64,000 nt of DNA from Diphasiastrum complanatum (Eukaryota > Streptophyta > Lycopodiopsida > Lycopodiales > Lycopodiaceae): assembly GCA_029204225.1 (NCBI GenBank), contig CM055107.1, positions 26,097,482 through 26,161,481 on the forward strand, written 5' to 3'. A program made the translations under genes and the position numbers. The notes under the pieces were generated by a model. It was given only the letters and a program-made list of their open reading frames with translations. It searched no databases and was not told where the DNA came from. Position 1 is the first letter of the stretch. Every line of letters begins with the position of its first letter. Below are positions 6,813 through 47,170 of this stretch, in pieces.

Positions 6813-7850
6813 GAAAAACCTGTTTTTCATGTAGCATGATTTTCAACTTGAGGAAACCATGGAGTTTTCTGAAACATGTTCAATATATACACTAGAAGAG
6901 ATGATTGAATGATTTAAAATTTTCAATTTTTAGTAAAAAAGGTATTTGAAGTTAATCACAACGATGATTGCATCCAGTATGGTAATACTTCATGCTGTTT
7001 AAGATGTAACCAGTTGTGATCATTGTCTTGCTAGTTATTTATTCTGTATAGCCTTGAAGTTGCATCTCGTAAATAGCTCTGTTTTTATCATGCTTACCCT
7101 AGGCCCTGTATTCCTTGGACCTTTTAAGTTTTCACAACACTGAACCATAGACAAATCATGTTCTGGAATTTCAGGTTGTTTCCGGAGTGGAACAGTTTGT
7201 TTGTTTGTTTGCTTGTTTGTTTTTGTTGCTTTTCTATGTAAACTATCTTAGGTATCTTAGGGGGAAAGACATCCTATAAAGTTAACAAAAAAAAACAATG
7301 ATACTTATTAGGTGCTAGGAATACTAAATTACATGCTGTTGCATTGGACCCAAGTTCGCTTTGCTACACTTTTAGATCACGCAAAGCATTGAATAACATT
7401 GAACGACCCTTCTATATCTACGCTCTATAGTTTTGGGATCAGTATCCATGCACATGGAAGACATTCTAACAGATCTTGAAGTCCTATTGGGAATTCTTCT
7501 ACCGTACCTTGTTGCACATCATGCAAGGTACTATGCTCCTTAATACATACGAGCAATTACTAAAGAAACCTTAATCCAAATTCCAAAGTAACAAAACTTG
7601 ATCTTCATGGGGTTTAACTTCCTCTTGGTAGCACTCCTTCCTCAACACTCTAGATTTTTAACATGCAAGCTTTAACCTTGATATCTCTGACAACGAATAA
7701 CGAGGAGTCACTACATTGACATAGATGTGTTCAGCATAATAGAATTCCCTAGATTTTGAAACATCTTATTGCTCCCAATTTACATGTTTGTTAATGGTTC
7801 CACCGGCTGTAAATAAAAAAATTAGGGCTTTTTTTTTGTTTTCCTTTTTT
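6813..7850 (+). repeat. 1.07-kb tandem duplication, copy 1
   Basis: Non-coding. Repeats at 7886-8924 with an offset of about 1073 bp. By eye only about ten substitutions and a few small indels separate the copies (for example GTTTTTATC/GTATTTATC, CACATGG/CACGTGG, CTACATTG/CTACCTTG), so identity is near 99%. It starts at GAAAAACCT and ends at a T/G-rich tract. Confidence 0.95.
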
Positions 7851-7875: not shown

Positions 7876-7911
7876 CATGCTACATGAAAAACCTATTTTT
7901 CATGTAGCATG
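7876..7911. repeat. Perfect 16-bp inverted repeat (hairpin) at duplication junction
   Basis: CATGCTACATGAAAAA at 7876-7891, a 4-base loop CCTA, then TTTTTCATGTAGCATG at 7896-7911. Copy 1 at 6813 has only the right half plus part of the left, so the full palindrome was created or preserved only at the junction. Confidence 0.95.
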
Positions 7912-8924
7912 ATTTTCAACTTGAGGAAACCATGGAGTTTTCTGAAACATGTTCAATATATACACTAGAAGAGATGATTGAATGATTTAAAATTTTCAAT
8001 TTTTAGTAAAAAAGGTATTTGAAGTTAATCACAACGATGATTGCATCCAGTATGGTAATACTTCATGCTGTTTAAGATGTAACCAGTTGTGATCATTGTC
8101 TTGCTAGTTATTTATTCTGTATAGCCTTGAAGTTGCATCTCGTAAATAGCTCTGTATTTATCATGCTTACCCTAGGCCCTGTATTCCTTGGACCTTTAAG
8201 TTTTCACAACACTGAACCATAGACAAATCATGTTCTGGAATTTCAGGTTGTTTCCGGAGTGGAACAGTTTGTTTGTTTGCTTGCTTGTTTGTTTTTGTTG
8301 CTTTTCTATGTAAACTATCTGAGGTATCTTAGGGGGAAAGACATCCTATAAAGTTAACAAAAAAAAACAATGATACTTATTAGGTGCTAGGAATACTAAA
8401 TTACATGCTGTTGCATTGGACCCAAGTTCGCTTTGCTACACTTTTAGATCACGCAAAGCATTGAATAACATTGAACGACCCTTCTATATCTACGCTCTAT
8501 AGTTATGGGATCAGTATCCATGCACGTGGAAGACATTCTAACAGATCTTGAAGTCCTATTGGGAATTCTTCTACCGTACCTTGTTGCACATCATGCAAGG
8601 TACTATGCTCCTTAATACATACGAGCAATTACTAAAGAAACCTTAATCCAAATTCCAAAGTAACAAAACTTGATCTTCATGGGGTTTAACTTCCTCTTGG
8701 TAGCACTCCTTCCTCAACACTCTAGATTTTTAACATGCAAGCCTTAACCTTGATATCTCTGACAACGAATAACGAGGAGTCACTACCTTGACATAGATGT
8801 GTTCAGCATAATAGAATTCCCTAGATTTTGAAACATCTTATTGCTCCCAATTTACATGTTTGTTAATGGTTCCACCGGCTGTAAATAAAAAAATTAGGGC
8901 TTTTTTTTTGTTTTCCTTTTTTTT
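7886..8924 (+). repeat. 1.07-kb tandem duplication, copy 2
   Basis: Second copy of 6813-7850, same orientation. The two are separated by a (TTTG)n run and half of a perfect palindrome. The near identity means the duplication is recent relative to the decayed transposons nearby. Confidence 0.95.
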
Positions 8925-34383: not shown

Positions 34384-35506
34384 GTTGCTTAACTGTATTG
34401 ATTTTTCCTTGTGTGGGAAAGCATTTATACTTCTTGTAGTGGTCAGTTTTCGTATTATTGTAGCAGGCATGATCTCTCCAGGTGTGCTATATGGCATCAG
34501 CCGGAGCACCCAACATTGGAGGCTGGCCCGATTTAGCACAGAGAAGAATGTATGAAGACATATTTTTTGTGATATTGCCAAAAGTTTGTGTAGCAAAGAG
34601 CAATGTACTGTTGCAACTTTTTTTAGTAATAGTTTTAAAATTTTGTGAAACCGAGGATATGCTAAAATTGTAGTAGTTGTTCTTTTATATTAGGTCATGT
34701 TAGGTATATGCTGAATTCATGCTTGTTTTTTCATGAAAAGGAGTTTCAAGTTACTGTTTGCTAACTTTGTGGTCAAATTATGCTGGTTTTTTGTAACAGG
34801 TAGGCTAGTGCTGAATTAGGGTAAGGGTTATTATATTAGGGTTTGGGCTTATTGTGCCCTCGCGTCGGAGCTTTCAAATCGTTTCTGCTCCGATACAGCG
34901 TTATCTCTATTTTAGGTACATAGGTTACTGGTTAGCCTCCAGCAATGTGGGATTGGAGTTTTGAAATTAGTTTTTGTCCGTGGAATCCTTTACGACTTAC
35001 CTACTACTAGCTATTCTAATTTTGTTGCTGAGTTTGCTAGTTTCAGGTTTGAGATTTAAATGCTCTGTGTTGATCAAAGCTTTGCCCTTTTCTGGCCAAT
35101 GCTCCGTGTGAATTTGTGCTTTTGCTTTGTTTTAAGGTAAGGTTAGGGTTCAAGGGGATCCAAGAACAGCCAGAGGAAGGTATGAAGTGATGGAGAGAGG
35201 GGGCCTCATGTGGCACAAATGGCATGTGAGAACTCTTGGGCATGGCCCAATCTATGCTCTCTAAATGAACTCAGTATGTGAAGCTTTTGCATCTTGCCAC
35301 ATGTCACTGGTGAAAGTTTGCACTTAATCCCATAAGCAAAGCTGAGGTCTTGCAGATTGTGAATACGTATGTGAATTTTGCATTTACCTTCAAAAACGTG
35401 CGGAGTGAGAAGGCTCTGCTGTAAATCACCTTATGGACCTCGTGAAGCAACTATTCTGGTTGTACATACTCTAAATCATACACTCTTCATGATTGGTGCA
35501 TCAGGC
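34384..35506. other. No recognised gene
   Basis: AT-rich, with several AGGGTTTGG/TTAGGGTAAGGG stretches near 34,820-34,850 that are too short and irregular to be telomeric repeats. Confidence 0.4.
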
Positions 35507-36014
35507 ATACATTCAAGTACACATTTTGGACCAATGAAATTGAATGACCGTTTGCCATATGGTAAACATTCATTGGGCCGGGGCCTAAAATGTTCACGTG
35601 CCAACTGGTGCCCCTTAAGTGCCAGCAGAGAGGGGTCTTTCTACAATGCTTATGTTACCATGAAGTCGATCAGGGCCAAGGTTTCTCTAATTGGCCATAT
35701 GAGGGCAAGTGCTGACCGTGACAGCTTAATCCAGCTATTGTGAGAATTGTGGCTGTCGCTGCCAAATGCTTGTTTAGAGGTGAGGGTAAAGGCAGGTGAC
35801 GATCAGGTGATCGATCAGATTTCGATAAGCTTTGCATTAGCTTGAAGCCAATCAATGAGCTGGCTTGGTGATTTATGAGTTGGATTTCGCATCAATGCCA
35901 ATGTGATCAATTGAGCATGGTTATACCTGCACTGAATCGTGCCATTTCATGAGACTTATCACCAGCGAATAGGGCAGAAAGTAAACTAGCATTGCACAAT
36001 GAGATAGGAAAGAC
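35507..36014 (+). repeat. 508-bp tandem duplication, copy 1
   Basis: Starts at CATACATTCAAGTAC and ends at GAGATAGGAAAGA; repeated at 36015-36516 with about 90-95% identity by eye. Confidence 0.92.
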
Positions 36015-36516
36015 ATACATTCAAGTACACATTTTGGACCAATGAAATTGAATGAATGTTTGCCATATGGTGAACGTTCATTGGACTGGGGCCTAAAATG
36101 TTCACGTGCCAACTGGTGCCCCTTAAGTGCCAGCAGAGAGGGGTCTTTCGACAATGCTTATGTTACCATGAAGTCGATCAGGGTGAAGGTTTCTCTAATT
36201 GGCCATATGAGGGCAAGTGCCGACCGTGACAGCTTAATCCAGCTATTGTGAGAGTTGTGGCTGTTGCTGCCAAACGCTCGTTTAGAGGGGAGGGTAATAG
36301 GTGATGATCAGGTGATCAATCAGATTTGGATAAGCTCGTTTGCATTTGCTTGAAGCCAATCAAGGAGCTGGCTTGGTGAGTTGGGTTTTGCATCAATGCC
36401 AATATGATCAATTGAGCATGGTTATACCTGCACTGAATTGTGCCATTTCATGAGACTTATCACCAACGAATAGGGCAGAAAGTAAACTAGCATTGCACAA
36501 TGAGATAGGAAAGACA
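36015..36516 (+). repeat. 508-bp tandem duplication, copy 2
   Basis: Second unit. More substitutions separate these copies than the 1.07-kb duplication at 6.8 kb, so this one is older. Confidence 0.92.
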
Positions 36517-37274
36517 GCAGTAGTGATGGGCCATAGTGACATTGTTGTTGAATTCAAGCTTACTTTAAATCTTATGAAAATCTAACGGCAAGTGTCTCTT
36601 TGAAGCATCAAATGCAGTAGTTGGACGAGAAGAAGTATGAGATCAATGATACACTTCTACTTGAAATTGTGGTTGCTTTATGGTCTTTACATGCAATGCA
36701 TTGATGGTAGCTTTGAGCCACCAAATGGACAAGCTTAAAGGTTTTCTTGTTTTGAAATTTCCTTTGATTGTGATAAATGACAAAGTGGATGAAGCAGCGA
36801 TTTAAAGTAACACAAAAGAGCTCAATCCCTTAAGTTGATACTCTTGATTTTTGACTGTAGATGAGATCGTGTGTGTTGTTATTAGATTGAAAGGGAAATG
36901 TTTTTGACATCTTGATGTCTAGGTTTGATACGTTTTACTCCAACAAATGGACGAGCCACTTTTGGGCGCTTGATGTTCCAAGATAAACCTTTTCCTTCAC
37001 GTTGGAAAGTTGGAAATTTTAGTGCTCCATGGGCTGATATCTGCTCCTCCTATATTGAGAGTGAGAAGAATCGGCAACAAACAAACACCAAACCTTCTTC
37101 ACGCTTGATAGAGGACTGTCCGCACTCAATTGCACTCAAGAAAGCTGCAGCTATGTAGGAATATTGACCTAATAGTATGCGTGTCCTTAAATGATTCTTT
37201 GTTGGAGAAGTGAGTTGACCATTGTGTGTAGGGGATTACTACCTACATGTGGAAACAAAATTTGGTATAAACAT
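36517..37274. other. No recognised gene
   Basis: One 77-residue plus frame at 36925-37158 without recognisable family; nothing else. Confidence 0.35.
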
Positions 37275-37365
37275 ATCAGAGTTGCAGCAGATCGCGATCC
37301 CGCTGCAAAAACGTTCCGGATCACGCGATTCGGAACGTCAGCGATCCGCGACCCGGATTGTGTAT
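37275..37365 (+). repeat. GC-rich double hairpin, resembles hAT terminus at 47.4 kb
   Basis: GCAGC...GCTGC and CGTTCCG...CGGAACG form two adjacent stem-loops. The start AGTTGCAGCAGATCGCGAT resembles AGTTGCAGCGAATCGCGAT, the inverted outer end of the hAT element at 47,407-47,431. May be a transposon terminus or MITE fragment. Confidence 0.45.
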
Positions 37366-37375
37366 TTCTATATCT

Positions 37376-37376
37376 A

Positions 37377-37408
<32 letters not shown>
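37376..37408 (+). repeat. (TA)n microsatellite
   Basis: TATCTATC then about 14 TA units. Confidence 0.93.
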
Positions 37409-37412
<4 letters not shown>

Positions 37413-37625
37413 TTGTGGAAAAAAGACTGATGGCCAATTTTTTTTTTCTATAGTTTAATACTAACTAAGCCTAATTGGATGGTGGACATGATGGAATGAT
37501 AACAATTCAAGGTTGGAGTTGAAACGACTATAAAGTCTTAAACAAAGCCCCTTTAGCATTTTGTTGTTGCTTTGGGGATTCCTGTGCAACATTACCAGGC
37601 TCCTGGCCTTGGTGAAGGAATCTTG

Positions 37626-38048
37626 TGTTAGGAATTAATGTTTATTTTCTAACCCTTAATGGTAGCTTGGTCATGCCTGTGTGCTATTATAGAGGCCATT
37701 TATATTTATAGTAAGTTGTTTTGTATATGTCATGCATGTAGGTGGGTGTACTACTACTAGAATAGGACTTGGTTTTAGTACATAGAAATACATCTTGGGT
37801 CTTTACCCAAAATACGTAGTAGTAATAGCAACTAGCTTTTTACCTTAGCTATTGCTTTTGCTTTTAGCTAGACTAGAAAATCTATATAAGAGAGGCTGGC
37901 GCCCAACTACAATTATTCCATTTTGTATAGAGCTTTGTTCACTCTTGCATAATCTAAGCTCTCTTCATCTCTTATGCTGGTCTTGTTGTGTGTGAGTGCT
38001 AATACAATTAGTCAACTCCATCTAGAATTTGTGGGTCATATTCTGACA
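37626..38048 (+). repeat. Copia-C 5' LTR
   Basis: 423 bp, TGTTAGGAATTAATG ... TTCTGACA. A TATA-like CTATATAAGAGAGG at 37,881 is a plausible promoter. Confidence 0.85.
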
Positions 38049-38060
38049 TGGTATCAGAGC
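38049..38060 (+). promoter_or_regulatory. Copia-C primer-binding site
   Basis: TGGTATCAGAGC directly after the LTR; perfect tRNA-Met type site. Confidence 0.92.
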
Positions 38061-40020: not shown

Positions 40021-41278
40021 AGTAGGGATGTGATCTCTTATAAGGATGAATCTCATGAAGATATAGAGATACCTTATGATAGGAAGGAAGATAGAGGAAT
40101 TCCTATCTTGTGTGACGAGTCATCACAGGAGTTTGAATCAACACATGTATCGCCTACACCAATCCAAGTACCTAGAGTGACCTTGGTTGAGAAAGGAAAG
40201 AGGAAGGAGAGATCAAGTATATGGGATACTTATTCACCTCCTAGTTCACAACTTCATTGGGAAGGAAGCATCCTACATTAGATACTAGAAGATTGCCTAG
40301 ATGGTCCTATGAAACTATCAAGGATAGTGTCATGATGGATCAGGGAGAGTTCAGTACATAGGGGACTAGGAGATCGACTAGGCTTGAAAAGCAACATGAA
40401 GCTAGAAGATTAGTATATCATGATGGGGATGTACACTTTGCATATATGGCCACAATATCGGAAACCAAGGATCCATCTACTTTTAGGGAGGCTGAAAAAG
40501 AGGACATTTCAAGGAAAGCTATGGATGAGGAGTACGACGCAATAATGAAGAACATGACTTAGAGACTTGTTCAATTACCTACAAGTAAAAAGGCCATTGG
40601 ATGCAAGTGGGTCTATAGAACTAAGTACAAATTGGACGGTTCTATAGATAAACGTAAGGCAAGATTGGTGGCAAAAGGTTATGCTCAACAAGAAGGGATT
40701 GACTATGAAGAAACTTTTGCACCAATTGGTAAGTCAACTACTATGAGAACATTTTTATCACTGGTAGCTCAGTTTGGATGGGATATTCAACAAATGGATG
40801 TGAAGAGTGCATTCTTGAATGGATTTCTAAAGCAGAAAGTCTACATGGAGCAGCCAGAGGGATACATACTAGCAGGACATGAAGACAAGGTTTGCAAGTT
40901 GGACAAGGTACTATATGGACTTAAGCAAGCACTCAAGGCGTGGTACACCAGGATTGACACAAACTTTGAGGAGCTCGGCTTTCAGAGGAGTAGAGAAGAG
41001 CCTACACTTCATATTTTGATCAAGGATGGCCATAATGTGATTGTAGTGATGTATGTGGATGACCTTGTTATCACAGGATCAGATCATGGTGTGATTCAGG
41101 ATATCAAGAAAGATCTCTCATCAGAGTTTGACATGAATGATCTTGGTTCACTACAATATTTTCTTGGGATTGAGGTATGGAGAGTAGCACAGGGGTTATT
41201 TATTTCTCAATCTGAGTATGCTCATGAACATCTTGAAAAGTTCAATATGCCAAAGTGCAAGCCTATTTCTACGCCATA
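40021..41278 (+). pseudogene. Copia-C linker and reverse transcriptase
   Basis: Linker up to 40,440; then FREAEKEDISRKAMDEEYDA, AIGCKWVYRTKYKLDGSID, ARLVAKGYAQQEGIDYEETF, MDVKSAFLNGFLKQKVYMEQ, CKLDKVLYGLKQALKAWY and the catalytic VMYVDDLVITGS near 41,055. The ORF from 40632 to 41283 is open; a stop at 40,560 cuts it from the linker. The RT thumb is interrupted at 41,283 by the TRIM array. Confidence 0.9.
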
Positions 41279-41283
41279 TGATA
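41279..41283 (+). other. Left target-site duplication of TRIM array
   Basis: TGATA, identical to 42188-42192 on the other side. Five bases is the standard duplication for LTR elements. Confidence 0.92.
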
Positions 41284-41427
41284 TGTTAGAAATCCATAAA
41301 TCATAATATAGATGGATAGACTAGGATTTGAACCCAGGACCTCCCTCATACCGGATGGGATGCTCTACCACTGAGCTATCCGCCCTGTTTGATAGTTCTC
41401 TCTAGAGTGTGGATTGATATTCCAACA
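41284..41427 (-). repeat. TRIM LTR 1
   Basis: 144 bp. Shares the AATCCATAAA variant with LTR 4. It has GGATAGA where the others have GGACAGA. Confidence 0.93.
41313..41385 (-). tRNA. tRNA-like module in LTR 1
   Basis: Reads GGGCGGATAGCTCAGTGG from 41385 leftwards, with A box TAGCTCAGTGG and B box GGTTCAAATCC. The acceptor 3' strand here is TCTATCC, giving one weaker pair than in the other copies. Probably not a working tRNA gene; the anticodon arm is imperfect. Confidence 0.7.
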
Positions 41428-41533
41428 CCCCCCCCGGCTGGGGTCCTAGCTGCCACCTGCCCCACAACTTGGGCCACCTAACCATGGCTTTGACACCATG
41501 AACTGTTAGGTCTAACTACTGGCTCTGATACCA
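41428..41533 (-). other. TRIM internal domain 1 (106 bp) with PPT and PBS
   Basis: Minus strand: primer site TGGTATCAGAGCC at 41521-41533, then non-coding sequence with a GGTGTCAAAGCCATGG segment, ending in a polypurine run GGGGGGGG at 41428-41435. Confidence 0.92.
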
Positions 41534-41677
41534 TGTTAGAAATTCGTAAATCATAATATGGATGGACAGACTAGGATTTGAACCTAGGACCTCCCTCATA
41601 TCGGATGGGATGCTCTACCACTGAGCTATCCGCCCTGTTTGATAGTTCTCTCTAGAGTGTGGATTGATATTCCAACA
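41534..41677 (-). repeat. TRIM LTR 2
   Basis: 144 bp; almost identical to LTR 3 (AATTCGTAAA variant). Confidence 0.93.
41563..41635 (-). tRNA. tRNA-like module in LTR 2
   Basis: 73 nt; acceptor GGGCGGA pairs with TCTGTCC over seven positions if G-U is allowed. D stem GCTC/GAGC. B box GGTTCAAATCC. Details in the LTR 4 entry. Confidence 0.75.
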
Positions 41678-41783
41678 CCCCCCCCGGCTGGGGTCCTAGC
41701 TGCCACCTGCCCCACAACTTGGGCCACCTAACCATGGCTTTGACACCATGAACTGTTAGGTCTAACTACTGGCTCTGATACCA
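41678..41783 (-). other. TRIM internal domain 2 (106 bp)
   Basis: Essentially identical to internal domain 1, with the primer site at 41771-41783 and G-run at 41678-41685. Confidence 0.92.
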
Positions 41784-41927
41784 TGTTAGAAATTCGTAAA
41801 TCATAATATGGATGGACAGACTAGGATTCGAACCTAGGACCTCCCTCATATCGGATGGGATGCTCTACCACTGAGCTATCCGCCCTGTTTGATAGTTCTC
41901 TCTAGAGTGTGGATTGATATTCCAACA
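41784..41927 (-). repeat. TRIM LTR 3
   Basis: 144 bp; differs from LTR 2 at a single B-box base by eye. Confidence 0.93.
41813..41885 (-). tRNA. tRNA-like module in LTR 3
   Basis: As in LTR 4, with the canonical B box GGTTCGAATCC. Confidence 0.78.
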
Positions 41928-42043
41928 CCCCCCCTCAAGCCACACTTGGTTGGGGTCCTAGCTGCCACCTGCCCCACAACTTGGGCCACCTAACCATGGC
42001 TTTGACACCATGAACTGTTAGGTCTAACTTGGCTCTGATACCA
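41928..42043 (-). other. TRIM internal domain 3 (116 bp)
   Basis: Longer form, with extra TCAAGCCACACTTG next to the polypurine tract. It lacks the ACTACT variant seen before the primer site in domains 1 and 2. Primer site at 42031-42043. Confidence 0.92.
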
Positions 42044-42187
42044 TGTTAATAATCCATAAATCATAATATGGATGGACAGACTAGGATTCGAACCCAGGAC
42101 CTCCCTCATACCGGATGGGATGCTCTACCACTGAGCTATCCGCCCTGTTTGATAGTTCTCTCTAGAGTGTGGATTGATATTCCAACA
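42044..42187 (-). repeat. TRIM LTR 4 (outer 5' LTR on the minus strand)
   Basis: 144 bp; ends TTATTAACA next to the primer site. Its outer end TGTTGG abuts the TGATA duplication. Confidence 0.93.
42073..42145 (-). tRNA. tRNA-like module in LTR 4
   Basis: Best example. Minus strand from 42145: acceptor GGGCGGA, TA, D stem GCTC, loop AGTGGTA, stem GAGC, A, a degenerate anticodon arm (TCCC ... GGGA with an inner A-A mismatch), variable bases, T arm CTGGG-TTCGAAT-CCTAG, acceptor TCTGTCC, then A. The A and B boxes match the Pol III consensus. No clear TTTT terminator follows within the LTR. A processed tRNA is unlikely; a Pol III promoter or tRNA-mimic role is inferred. Confidence 0.8.
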
Positions 42188-42192
42188 TGATA
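42188..42192 (+). other. Right target-site duplication of TRIM array
   Basis: TGATA, matching 41279-41283 exactly. Confidence 0.92.
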
Positions 42193-42674
42193 GTGGATGT
42201 AAGCTTACTAAAGCTTAGGAGGATTATGATGTAGATGAGGCGCTACATAGGAAGCTTAATCTCTGTAACTACAACGAGACCAGATATCGCTTATGCTGTT
42301 AGTATGGTTAGTCAGTTTATGGCTAAGCCTAAGTAGGTTCATTGGAGAGATGCTAAGTGATGAGGTTTGGTATTCTCTATGAGAGACAAGATGATTTGCA
42401 GTTATAGGGATATGTGGATGCTGATTGGGCCAGAGATGCGAAAGATCGAAGATCTACTACAGGTTATGTTTTCCGTCTTGGTAAAGGTGGTATTTCTTGG
42501 AGTTCAAAGAAGCAGCATACTATTGCATTATCATCTATAGAGGTAGAGTACCGGGCTACTACGAGTGCGGCAAGTGAAGCAATATGCTTACGAAAACTTA
42601 GCCACTATACAAGTATCATTGTATACCTTGTTTGGCGAACTGCATCTTCGAGGGTAAGAGGCTGGTTGCTCTGA
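42193..42674 (+). pseudogene. Copia-C thumb and RNase H
   Basis: After the TRIM array the Copia frame resumes: TTRPDIAYAVSMVSQFMAKP, then, after stops and a frameshift, [39 protein letters not shown] and [10 protein letters not shown]. RNase H of copia type, broken near the end. Confidence 0.88.
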
Positions 42675-42680
42675 ACCTCA

Positions 42681-44117
42681 AGATGGAAATCCTTAGGTAA
42701 ACAAAGATAAGAGGCAATTCATCAAAGTAGGATCTATTGTAGTAGCAAAACGAGAATATACCTCTTGGAAGTCCTGCAAGTATGCATGAAGGGGCCAGCT
42801 CCCCATATGAAGTGAGTACTTTTGGCCTCTCCATGGAATAAGAGGCCTTACTCATTATTATGCTATTGGAGATCTCATTGCCTTACCTAAGGACATGGTG
42901 ATATCCTTATAATTGGGTAAGGGCATAACATTCTTCCTCCTTAAACTAGTTTTGTCCATAGAACAAGAAGGAAAGGAAATATCATCGAACAACAAGAATC
43001 ACCAATTATTTTTAAGAATCATTGCCTTTGCACACTATCCTCTAGTAATAGGCAAGTGTACAATTTATGATTCGGCGATCGAAAAACGTAGAATTTGAAT
43101 CATATTTGTCAATCGTAATTTCGTGGATGCTCAAGTCACACATAAATATCAGAGAACATTGGAAGGTACGTTATAACATTCAACTCAAGGAAATGCAATA
43201 TTAATCTAAAGTCTCTTTCCTTAGGGAAGTTCTAAACTTCAAGAATTTTCCGTAACTTGGATTCTTATCAAGAAATATGAGTTATCTTAATTATGTATTC
43301 CATCTAGCAGGCAAAGGCAAAAAGCATATTTAAATAGATTTAGCATTAACTCCCTTTAACCATAAAAATTTAATTTGTTTCAGCCTAGAGTTAATGATGC
43401 TGAATTTTGACATATATTCAATTGTTACTCTTCGTATTGTTAGACATTGACATCCGATAGCAGGACCAGTAGGTATCAAACAAAAACACCACACTAGGGC
43501 AACGTTTCGCTGAAACGCATTTCATTCAATGAAACTCCATTTCATACGGATTGTTCGAAACGGATTTTAAAATTAGACCAAAATAAAAAGAAACACTCCT
43601 AATGTGTGTGTGAAAGTTTGGCATATAAAACTTTAGTTAGAACTCAGTAGGGAACAATAGAATTATGAATACCTTTTGTGCATGTGCATTGTGTGATGTA
43701 TCTCAATGTCTTATTGAGTCCTCAGTCATCTAAGTGTTCATTGTATAGAGTATAGAGCTATAATTACTTTCTAGACACTTAAAAAACAATAGTTGGTTCT
43801 TCTTTAACATAAGGTTACCAATAAAACCAAGCAAAAAAAACATCTCTAAAAATGTTTCATCGTTTCTTTTCCAACAGCAAAAAAAGAAACCCTAAAAACT
43901 TATAACTGATCAAGGACACGTCACTCACTTTCCTATGTCTTTTGTCTTTTCAAAGGCTTTTTTTGTTTCCTCTACCTAAGATAAACGTGAGATCATCATC
44001 CATAACTCATCCCACTTTGATCTGGCGAACACAACCCGAATGGGCTCATCCTCATCCTGCTCATCCCCCGACACTGGCTCATCTGCCTCGTACAATGGAG
44101 GCTCTCTGTGCACAAGC

Positions 44118-44122
<5 letters not shown>
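42681..44122. other. No recognised gene; possible transposon end near 43,490
   Basis: No 3' LTR of Copia-C here. At 43,490-43,570 a TAGGGCAACGTTTCGCTGAA block with GTTTCNNTGAAAC palindromes looks like a transposon terminus, but no partner end was found. Confidence 0.35.

Positions 44123-44155
<33 letters not shown>
44123..44155 (+). repeat. (CT)n microsatellite
   Basis: About 16 CT units; a second short CT run follows at about 44,171-44,183. Confidence 0.93.
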
Positions 44156-44158
<3 letters not shown>

Positions 44159-44289
44159 TCGACAAGCTCCCTCTCTCTCTCTCTGCCATCAGCTGTGTGC
44201 CCAAGTCATCTGCAGGCATGGGATGTGTGCTATCCGTAGGCAAGTCAACCTGGCACTCCAAATCAGATATCTTCGTCTGCAAGGTTTAA

Positions 44290-46892
44290 AATTTGCATGT
44301 CAGAGAGACAACTTGATCAGGAAATGAAACCAATGTACCAGCCGTCAACCAACATGCTATGAGAGAATAGCTTATCACTTGCAGTGCGCTCGTAATGGTC
44401 GGAAGTCTCCTAGCGAGACGTGCATTGGTGCTACAGAACACCAACCGCTCCAACTGACTCACTGACAACCGTGCAATGAAATGCTTCAGCACATGTGCAC
44501 GGGTGGAACGTCAATGAAACACAGCAATGGAGGATGAAATGAGATGCATACCTGAGGAAGGACCCGCAGTGCAAGACGCTGTATGGAGGGATAGGTGCTA
44601 TCGAACATGGTCCACTAGGTAATGGGAAGCTACCTCCTCTCTGGATCCTGAGCAGCCGGGTGGCCGAACGTGCCCATGCCGAAACGAAATGCAGCTAGCT
44701 CCTCCGTGAGCCTGATAGGATCCAAGCCAATGTGTGGACCCACCCTGTGAATGTACTCAAGCCAATCCGCCTCGAGCTCCCCGTCTGCGATTTGTGTCGA
44801 AGAGAGGAAGAGGGGATGCAGTATGTGTGCAACGCTGTGGATACTCCTGTGGAAGTAGTTCCATCTCGTCTCCCAGATGAACTTCAGCTCGGTCAGCCTG
44901 CAGGTGAGAGGGGCATGTGGTTTAATGCATTACGAAAAAACGTAACATCGACAGAAAAACAAACTAGCAACTACTGAAAAGATAAAGACCAATTACATTA
45001 CTATACTGCTTACCTCTCTGGCTGCAAGATGGGCAGCTGCAGGAACTGTCCAATCCGGTCCATGAGCTCATACACCAGTCCAAGTGTCGACCCCTCATTG
45101 TTAGCCATGTGGAGCACAATGTAGAGTGGTCGAAGGAGTCCTGACAATGTCTGTGCATCCCTCCAGAGCTGGTCTCCCCTCACCGTGGAAGAAAAGTGCT
45201 CCCCATCCTCAGTGTGCTGAAACGTACTGGCACGCAAAGATCACTGGCAACCATCTGTAGAAGCTGCGCCCTACACCTGATCAAACGGTCGATGACCACC
45301 AAGTCGAATGCAAAGCGTGTGGGGGCTGGCTTACGGAGGTCCAAATGGCTGAACACCCGAAATATGGCAAGAACACGCCTCTTCTTGGTGACAAAAGTCA
45401 CCAGGAAGAGGGCCTCACGGATGATGGCTCTAACCCAGGGAAGTGCACCTATGTCCCCCATCAGAAGGTCTATGTCGTGCGCTGCACAGGGGGTATGAAC
45501 GATGTGAGGGAACTCGGCCTCTAGCATTACACCCATTTGAATGCAGTTGGTGGCATTGTCTGTCACCACCGTGACGACATGTTGTGGGCCTATGGACAGG
45601 ATGGAAGACCTGATGACATCAAACATGAACTCTGCAGGTATGGCCCTCCCCCCCCTGTTGCAATCCACGGCCCTCAAAAACTGTGTGCCCATGCAGCTAG
45701 AGACCAAGATGTTGAGGATCGGCTTCGTCCTGACATCAGTCCAGCCATCGGACATGATGCTGCAACCGTAAGTGGCCCAGTGGCGACGTAGAAGCTCCAT
45801 CTCTCTAGACAAGGACTCGACCCTATCCCTCAACATGTGTTTACGGACAAACTCTGAACTAGGGACTCTCCAGCTAGGGCTGACAGACTGTGCAAGGCAG
45901 AAGGCCCTTCTGAAGGGCTCAGAGTCGGTGATGGCAAATGGAAGGTTCAGCTCATAAATCAGACTGGCCATGGCCTGTGTGGCCTCTCTGTCCATGTGCG
46001 GCTGATGCGCGCCGCGAATGCTCTGCTGCCTAAGAACTCCTAGATGGGCGATGCCCTCCAGCATGGTGCACCAAACGTGACGGGAATGGATGATGACGCG
46101 ACAGGCTGGGCACTAGTGGATGCATCAGCTGTAGACGTGGAATGGGGAGAGTGGGATGCATTGGCAGGGATGGGTGCAGCAACATAAGTGGGGTGCACTG
46201 GTGGAGGGGGGACATTTGGCATGGGATACGAAAACTGCTGGCTAGGGAGGTCATCCAGATGGGAAGGGAGGGAGGAAGGGATCTCCTCAACATTCTGGAA
46301 GGCCTCGTCACTGGCATCCTGGGCCTGCTCCTGCACGGGTGGCGGAGAGTCCATGAGAAAGTCGTAAACTGGGGGAGTGCGAGCAACAGTAGGTGGTGGT
46401 GGAACCGCAGTGGCAACTGGCGGACGCGATGGGACGGGATCCACCGGAATGGGTGCAGATGGGGATGCGTGTGGCGGAACTGTTTAAGGGGGATGAGAGA
46501 CAAAGGGACTGGACGAGGATGCACTCCCTCTCCTCGTGCGTGCCAGCCAAGCAGGCAGCAACTCGGGGTCAACCACGTAAGGTGCGGTGCAAAACCAAAG
46601 AACACCCTCCGAAATGGTGTTCTCCCCCGCCACAAGACGTGGCGCGTAGGTGTCCAGAAGTTGCTGCCTGACGGGAACGGACATGCTGCCGCAGGGGGCA
46701 GCATTCAGTGTGCCACCATTTTTGGCGCGTGCACCGAGTAGGTGGCCTTAGGCGAGTGAGGGTGGCACTGAACTCGACCAGGCAATATCGACAACGCACG
46801 ATCTTTGCACCGGACTTGTTGGACTTGTCAGGAACCTGTCTGACAATGTCCACCTCGTCCCACAGATCGGCAAGGTTGGAATGCACCATTTC
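44290..46892 (-). pseudogene. hAT transposase (BED zinc finger, DUF659, hAT dimerisation)
   Basis: From ATG 46892: LWDEVDIV then a C-x2-C pair (RCRYCLVEF) of a BED-like finger. A frameshift follows, then GHLLGARAKNGGTLNAAPCG in a shifted frame. Next is a long Pro/Ser-rich part. DUF659 lies at 46064-45180: FAITDSEPFRRAF, YGCSIMSDGWTDVRTKPILN, TVVTDNATNCIQMG and HTPCAAHDIDLLMGD. Then RPLYIVLHMANNEG, and after an apparent intron AFRFGMGTFGHPAA, WWTMFDSTYPSIQRLALRVL and a decayed dimerisation end SQLERLVFCSTN (normally ERNWS). These parts would bind element ends and cut and rejoin DNA in the nucleus. At least three frameshifts make it inactive. Confidence 0.85.
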
Positions 46893-47170
46893 TATAGAGG
46901 GAACTGGGGAAAAAAGGCAGAGATGATCGTGAGTGCGATAGGAGGCGGAAGGCTGGAAAATCCACAACAATGGCCGAAGTAGCAGTAGCAGTAGCAGGGG
47001 CAGAAGCGATCTGTGCAATGCGAAGACGGTCTGATGGTGAGGAGGGCGCGGGCAGCAGGGAGGGCGCAGACAACAGGAAGAGGGCGCGAACAGCAGCGCG
47101 ATGGGCAAGGAGAGAGATGAAGCGAGGGGGGGGGGAAATTAGGGCAAAAAAAATATATAAATATTAAAAA

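Follow-up and report, generated by a model that had tools for sequence, protein, structure and literature searches.

The window, by which we mean the whole 64-kb stretch of DNA analyzed here, contains a 904-bp tandem TRIM array in which each of four LTRs carries a tRNA-like module. The array belongs to a high-copy family in the host genome, and we file the element as a Helenus family. The whole explanation that we favor, with moderate confidence, is a Helenus-type TRIM with a putative Pol III promoter module, which would use Copia enzymes in trans and whose arrays would arise by unequal exchange.

Architecture of the array and its tRNA-like module

The array occupies positions 41284..42187 of the window on the minus strand and has the order LTR-int-LTR-int-LTR-int-LTR. 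All of its parts lie on the same strand and are described here in the sense direction. The LTRs, designated a (42044..42187), b (41784..41927), c (41534..41677) and d (41284..41427) from first to last, are each 144 bp long and have TGTT...AACA ends, which are of the TG...CA type. LTRs b and c differ at 1 of 144 positions, and LTRs a and d differ at 5 of 144. Internal region 1 (41928..42043) is 116 bp long; internal regions 2 (41678..41783) and 3 (41428..41533) are 106 bp long and identical to each other. Every internal region starts at once with the primer-binding site (PBS) TGGTATCAGAGC, assigned to initiator Met tRNA from the 3' ends of the host tRNA-iMet, and ends with 7 to 8 Gs. The first PBS abuts LTR a (42032..42043), and the further copies are at 41772-41783 and 41522-41533. 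A polypurine tract (PPT), GGGGGGG, abuts LTR b (41928..41934), and G8 tracts precede LTR c (41678-41685) and LTR d (41428-41435). In the 106-bp form of the internal region (41428-41533 and 41678-41783), the PBS is followed by GTAG, and the region is shortened ahead of the G tract.

A perfect 5-bp target-site duplication (TSD), TGATA (TATCA on the sense strand), is present as one pair around the entire array, at 41279..41283 on the left and 42188..42192 on the right. The span that had been given to the element in an earlier note made from the sequence alone, 41313..42145, is bounded by the outermost tRNA-like parts; the complete element covers 41284-42187, with the TSDs in addition. The only ORFs of at least 40 aa that touch the array are one 40-aa frame and a Ty1-copia reverse transcriptase ORF (40632..41306, plus strand; RVT_2, E 9e-67), which the array interrupts and which, as called mechanically, continues into the array from 41284. 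Two-LTR copies of the family measure about 404 bp, are TRIM-sized and encode no protein. The TRIM identity proposed in that note is upheld by the TG...CA ends, the PBS, the PPT, the 5-bp duplications and the lack of protein.

The tRNA-like module is 73 nt long and corresponds to LTR positions 43-115 in all four LTRs of the array. ARAGORN and the Rfam model RF00005 both called the module of LTR a (42073..42145; 49.8 bits), LTR b (41813..41885; 53.1 bits), LTR c (41563..41635; 53.1 bits) and LTR d (41313..41385; 45.3 bits), so that the covariance-model check suggested for these LTRs came out in favor of a tRNA in every case. The RF00005 scores compare with a cut-off of 29 bits and correspond to window-wide E values of 1.9e-6 to 1.4e-8, and these four modules are the only ARAGORN tRNA calls in the 64-kb window. 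When the array was scanned with Rfam at E values up to 0.01, RF00005 was the only family listed, and 5S rRNA was absent.

Further inspection of the modules qualified two earlier statements about them. They had been described as the same 73-nt sequence in four 144-bp LTRs; a module is indeed found in every LTR, but the sequences differ by 1 to 4 bases. Boxes A and B likewise had been ascribed to every LTR. Box A, TAGCTCAGTGG (42128..42138 in LTR a), is exact in all four modules, but box B (42084..42094 in LTR a) reads exactly GGTTCGAATCC in two of the four and GGTTCAAATCC in the other two. When the modules of LTRs a and b were folded, complete acceptor, D and T stems and an irregular anticodon arm were obtained, as the earlier reading of visible stems with a poor anticodon arm had anticipated. 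The fold energies of these two modules were not better than those of shuffled sequences (z scores of -0.55 and -1.34); the evidence for the module therefore comes from the tRNA model and from the boxes rather than from folding energy. Among 20 host tRNA genes chosen from 63 matches listed, the best match to the module was tRNA-Thr(TGT) with an identity of 0.73, followed by Arg with 0.70, which gives a lead only to the parent tRNA. The 3' end of the module is not complementary to the PBS of the element, and the same is reported for Helenus (Kojima 2024, PMC10886601).

Copies across the genome

In order to place the array in its family, we searched the 1.74-Gb genome with short patterns. When the initial 21 nt of the LTR served as the probe and up to 2 mismatches were allowed, 1838 LTR starts were obtained, compared with 0 for the reversed control. 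An exact LTR start was followed by an exact box A after 20-45 nt at 931 sites (control, 0) and by the PBS at 449 sites (control, 0) when the gap, with the module inside it, was set to 109-138 nt. At a gap of 30-60 nt, the spacing of a module-free LTR (an LTR missing precisely the module would have a gap of 50), there were 0 sites; the count applies to that range, and one deleted copy described below, with a gap of 61 nt, falls just outside it. Internal regions numbered 925 with up to 2 mismatches, about half of the LTR-start count, which suggests, as far as counts from different probes can be compared, that solo LTRs do not predominate. Twelve internal-region sites without an exact LTR start among the matches listed were fetched, and all 12 had at least a partial family LTR; 3 of the 12 fall within the stretch covered by the LTR-start listing.

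Individual copies were examined in a sample of 98 loci (L001-L098). Eight came from a DNA search, 30 from the start of the LTR-start list and 49 from regions covering the remainder of the 100 LTR-start matches listed; the last 11 were picked by hand from the LTR-to-PBS list, odd variants included. The sample thus described leans toward copies with an intact LTR start. It yielded 104 chains, of which 80 were kept (unique 40-nt flanks, with 60 nt or more between the chain and the ends of its locus) and 24 were dropped. Both outer ends were present in 48 of the 80 chains: 41 were two-LTR copies, another 5 were longer arrays, and in the other 2 copies one LTR is split by the loss of most of the module. 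Exact 5-bp duplications flanked 30 of these 48 insertions and were absent from 18, and at least 4 of the 5 bases matched in 41; when the pairing of ends was shuffled, exact duplications numbered 0.68 on average and 4 at most. With TG...CA ends, PBS, PPT and 5-bp duplications, the copy check outlined beforehand confirmed the family in this genome.

ARAGORN called a tRNA in 105 of the 125 full-length LTRs of the sample, always in the sense orientation and in 88 cases exactly at LTR positions 43-115; 20 LTRs gave no call. Both boxes, with at most 1 mismatch each, were present in 111 of the 125, and the remaining 14 lacked one or both at that threshold. Together with the count of 449 sites against 0 in the spacing searches, the tRNA calls bear out the proposal that the module belongs to the LTR of the family. 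The isotype was Thr(ggt) in 85 of the 125 sampled LTRs, from which we infer that the output of tRNA gene finders for this genome will probably include false tRNA-Thr genes by the hundreds. In rust fungi, tRNA-like LTRs have been reported as false tRNA genes (Kojima 2024, PMC10886601).

The two LTRs of an element differed by 0.041 on average (range, 0.007-0.090) in the 33 two-LTR elements whose LTRs were both close to 144 bp in length. The LTR difference between elements was 0.044, and the similarity of the two values indicates star-like copies, as after one burst. A test for extra constraint on the boxes, which has little power, gave no signal: the ratio of shared to discordant changes was 1:33 within the boxes, compared with 10:163 outside them (Fisher p 0.70).

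Several sampled copies depart from the standard form. The module is mostly deleted in the 3' LTR of L049 and in the middle LTR of L028, both otherwise normal copies; the L028 copy with the deleted module, in which the LTR-PBS gap is 61 nt, is also present in L029 and L030. At L063, L072, L074 and L085, the match to the LTR start breaks off after 25-66 nt, and we read these as truncated copies. In a subvariant at L006:1217-1830, 3 of the 5 LTRs of one array are without about 16 bp near the 3' end, and the occurrence of this form in three LTRs suggests unit duplication inside arrays.

We also noted that a second, near-identical copy of the window array (L001) and its 1.5-kb flanks is located 7.6 Mb away (L002; G000:C16, 26.14 Mb and 33.72 Mb), with 5 of 3833 bases differing. 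Some other sampled copies look paired as well; they have the same element structure and lie 0.2-0.6 Mb apart in opposite orientation, as at C1 82.23/82.83 Mb and C1 38.31/38.47 Mb. Such pairs could stem from segmental duplication in the recent past or, alternatively, from assembly artefacts that involve haplotypes.

Relationship to Helenus and to other small elements

The earlier note knew of no described family of this kind. That statement does not hold, because TRIMs with tRNA-derived LTRs have been described under the name Helenus (Kojima 2024, PMC10886601). The structural features that define Helenus were all found here: a tRNA-derived sequence with boxes A and B in both LTRs, a PBS after the 5' LTR and a PPT before the 3' LTR, the 5-bp TSD of the fungal and plant families (exact in 30 of 48 insertions) and a TRIM-sized element without protein. 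Since every structural criterion that we tested gave this result, the element is filed as a Helenus family. Among the families presented by Kojima (PMC10886601), Helenus-1_SMo of Selaginella moellendorffii is the only one from a plant. Set beside our element by description only, it likewise is a TRIM with a tRNA-derived module containing boxes A and B in each LTR, a PBS and a PPT, and the lengths of its LTR and internal region (120 and 85, compared with 144 and 116 here) are of the same order. Five-base-pair duplications are reported in both fungal and plant Helenus families, and tandem arrays are also reported for zebrafish LTR-11_DR (PMC10886601). A difference lies in the PBS: it is of the iMet type here, a type that Kojima reports for some fungal families only (PMC10886601). 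The element apparently represents an undescribed plant Helenus family: a survey confined to papers, mostly open-access ones, revealed no other description of tRNA modules in plant LTRs. Within that literature, Helenus retrotransposons turned up in the Kojima paper and in one meeting report.

The family also can be regarded as a tRNA counterpart of Cassandra with its 5S module, as had been suggested from the sequence, given that the module lies in the family LTR and is a tRNA by Rfam. Both have a small RNA gene module with a Pol III promoter, putative in our element, in the LTR, and both form tandem arrays that share LTRs; the PBS TGGTATCAGAGC falls within the search pattern used for Cassandra (PMC7215508). 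Cassandra, however, carries 5S rRNA, whereas the module here scores as tRNA and not as 5S, and the element is therefore not Cassandra. The plant TRIMs of Gao et al. 2016 (PMC4717578) resemble it in having two LTRs around a short noncoding internal region and in the frequency of arrays. In the main text of that paper, with which the comparison was made at the level of wording, the terms "tRNA" and "polymerase III" occur 0 times.

Like tRNA-derived SINEs, the element contains a tRNA-like part with boxes A and B, a presumed Pol III promoter. Unlike them, it has LTRs, a PBS, a PPT and 5-bp duplications around the module, and so presumably is mobilized by LTR-element machinery. Classification as a SINE, which has no LTRs and moves by target-primed reverse transcription, was rejected on the same features. 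A chimera of SINE and TRIM, raised in the earlier note, would be a possible origin. A search for an exact B box at other spacings from the PBS gave 5 and 11 sites, all of which by eye belong to this family with indels. No second tRNA-LTR family with the same PBS was seen at these spacings, in a search that covered exact B boxes paired with this PBS.

Proposed mechanism and alternative readings

Most likely, judging from its sequence, the module is a putative Pol III promoter for the genomic RNA. Boxes A and B would form an internal (type 2) promoter, with RNA starting near LTR position 40, close to a CAA triplet. This triplet is found at -6 to -4 in 63 of 66 LTRs (33 elements), and CAA is reported within 10 nt upstream of 36-45% of angiosperm tRNA genes (PMC11700998). 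After the remainder of the 5' LTR, the transcript would cover the internal region and extend into the 3' LTR; its end would lie at a T run, mostly in flanking DNA. On the sense strand of the window array there is no T4 terminator, and a Pol III transcript of it would consequently end in the flanking DNA. The absence is not significant, since 3560 of 5000 shuffles of the LTR-plus-internal unit likewise lacked T4. Among the sampled two-LTR chains, T4 was present in 9 of 49. In the first strand transfer, the repeated tRNA-like part would then take the role of the R region. Kojima (PMC10886601) expects Pol III transcription of Helenus, in that account without experimental validation, and names Cassandra as the only validated Pol III TRIM.

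Reverse transcription would be primed at the PBS by initiator Met tRNA. Nine host sites match the tRNA-iMet pattern with an identical 71 letters and the 3' end TGGCTCTGAT, the reverse complement of which, ATCAGAGCCA, is contained in the PBS TGGTATCAGAGCCA; the other PBS letters are those expected from the last tRNA base and the CCA end. Copia reverse transcriptase and integrase would act in trans. Dependence on Copia has been proposed for fungal Helenus (Kojima 2024, PMC10886601), and the iMet PBS and 5-bp duplications agree with this notion, so that a Copia element probably supplies the enzymes. The Copia element interrupted by the array has the same PBS type (38049-38060), and its LTR end is unlike that of the TRIM family. 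Comparison of 35001-38060 with 42188-47000 revealed no second LTR. With the interrupted Copia examined as candidate, no autonomous partner with a matching internal region was found.

A conventional TRIM would be transcribed by Pol II, and its module would be the relic of an old tRNA or SINE insertion into an ancestral LTR, a passenger of the master copy that has no role. We consider this unlikely, though it merits serious attention: the copies are star-like, and recent common descent alone could explain why the module is conserved. A neutral passenger, however, need not keep both boxes, and the acceptor, D and T arms are still readable together with both of them. In addition, fungal and animal Helenus keep the same boxes, and Kojima takes Helenus to have several origins (PMC10886601).

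The tandem arrays would, in the mechanism that we prefer, result mainly from later unequal exchange at one insertion site. A multi-LTR RNA or template switching could instead have produced the array before or during integration; the single TGATA duplication around the whole array fits such an origin, as does the report that Cassandra arrays are transcribed through their inner LTRs (PMC7215508). We regard this origin, too, as unlikely but far from negligible. Among loci L001-L133, the 106-bp internal form occurs only in L001, which is the window, and in its duplicate, L002. This restriction, the 1/144 difference between LTRs b and c and the identity of internal regions 2 and 3 point to duplication at the site.

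The module could also act as an RNA, in packaging, in end formation by RNase P/Z or in priming, and not as a promoter. It scores as tRNA, and its fold has the acceptor, D and T stems; nevertheless, we consider the proposal improbable, with the 3' end of the module not complementary to the PBS and the fold energy at the level of shuffles. Were the mimicry strong, the 3' LTR would be predicted to undergo efficient tRNA processing, which would cut the genomic RNA. The ARAGORN and Rfam calls would also be accounted for by host tRNA genes of the usual kind or by the late insertion of a SINE into only a few copies, the outcome named in advance as fatal to the proposal, but we give this hardly any credence and reject the tRNA gene (a fixed position in a high-copy LTR, shared by 88 of 125 LTRs, an irregular anticodon arm and an identity of at most 0.73 to the 20 sampled host genes) and, as a general explanation, the late SINE or tRNA insertion (the spacing result, the LTR sample and the presence of at least a partial family LTR at all 12 internal sites).

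With its putative promoter, the family is a good system for testing an LTR retrotransposon on a tRNA-type Pol III promoter. If it is undescribed, Helenus gains a second plant with it, at high copy number and in tandem arrays. The host genome, which has 23 large scaffolds, contains 37 matches to the chlorophyll a/b-binding family. For one LHCII protein (L134), the best PDB match is the multi-domain chain 9vfj_2, followed by three single-domain chains from moss, spruce and spinach with similar scores (8htu, 8c29 and 3jcu; 506.6, 502.9 and 501.2 bits). Another protein (L136) is Lhcb2-like; its nearest chains, in part flowering-plant Lhcb2, score 464.6-451.7 bits and the moss chain 441.9, so that taken alone it does not argue against a flowering plant. 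We take the host to be a land plant, perhaps outside the flowering plants and possibly a lycophyte, with Diphasiastrum complanatum (n = 23) as a tentative candidate. Should this be right, Helenus would have lycophytes as both of its plant hosts. A lycophyte host and kinship to Helenus-1_SMo would allow a broader conjecture, which we hold to be doubtful, that tRNA-driven LTR elements go back hundreds of millions of years as an old lineage of lycophytes, a Pol III counterpart to Cassandra that the remaining vascular plants either never possessed or have lost.

Two features of the window lie outside the array. A segment of about 610 bp is duplicated at 6813-7422 and 7886-8494, with 99% identity and about 1.07 kb between the copies. 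An ORF on the minus strand at 45183-46064 encodes a DUF659 domain (E 1.8e-39), which we take to be of the kind usual in hAT-like transposons.
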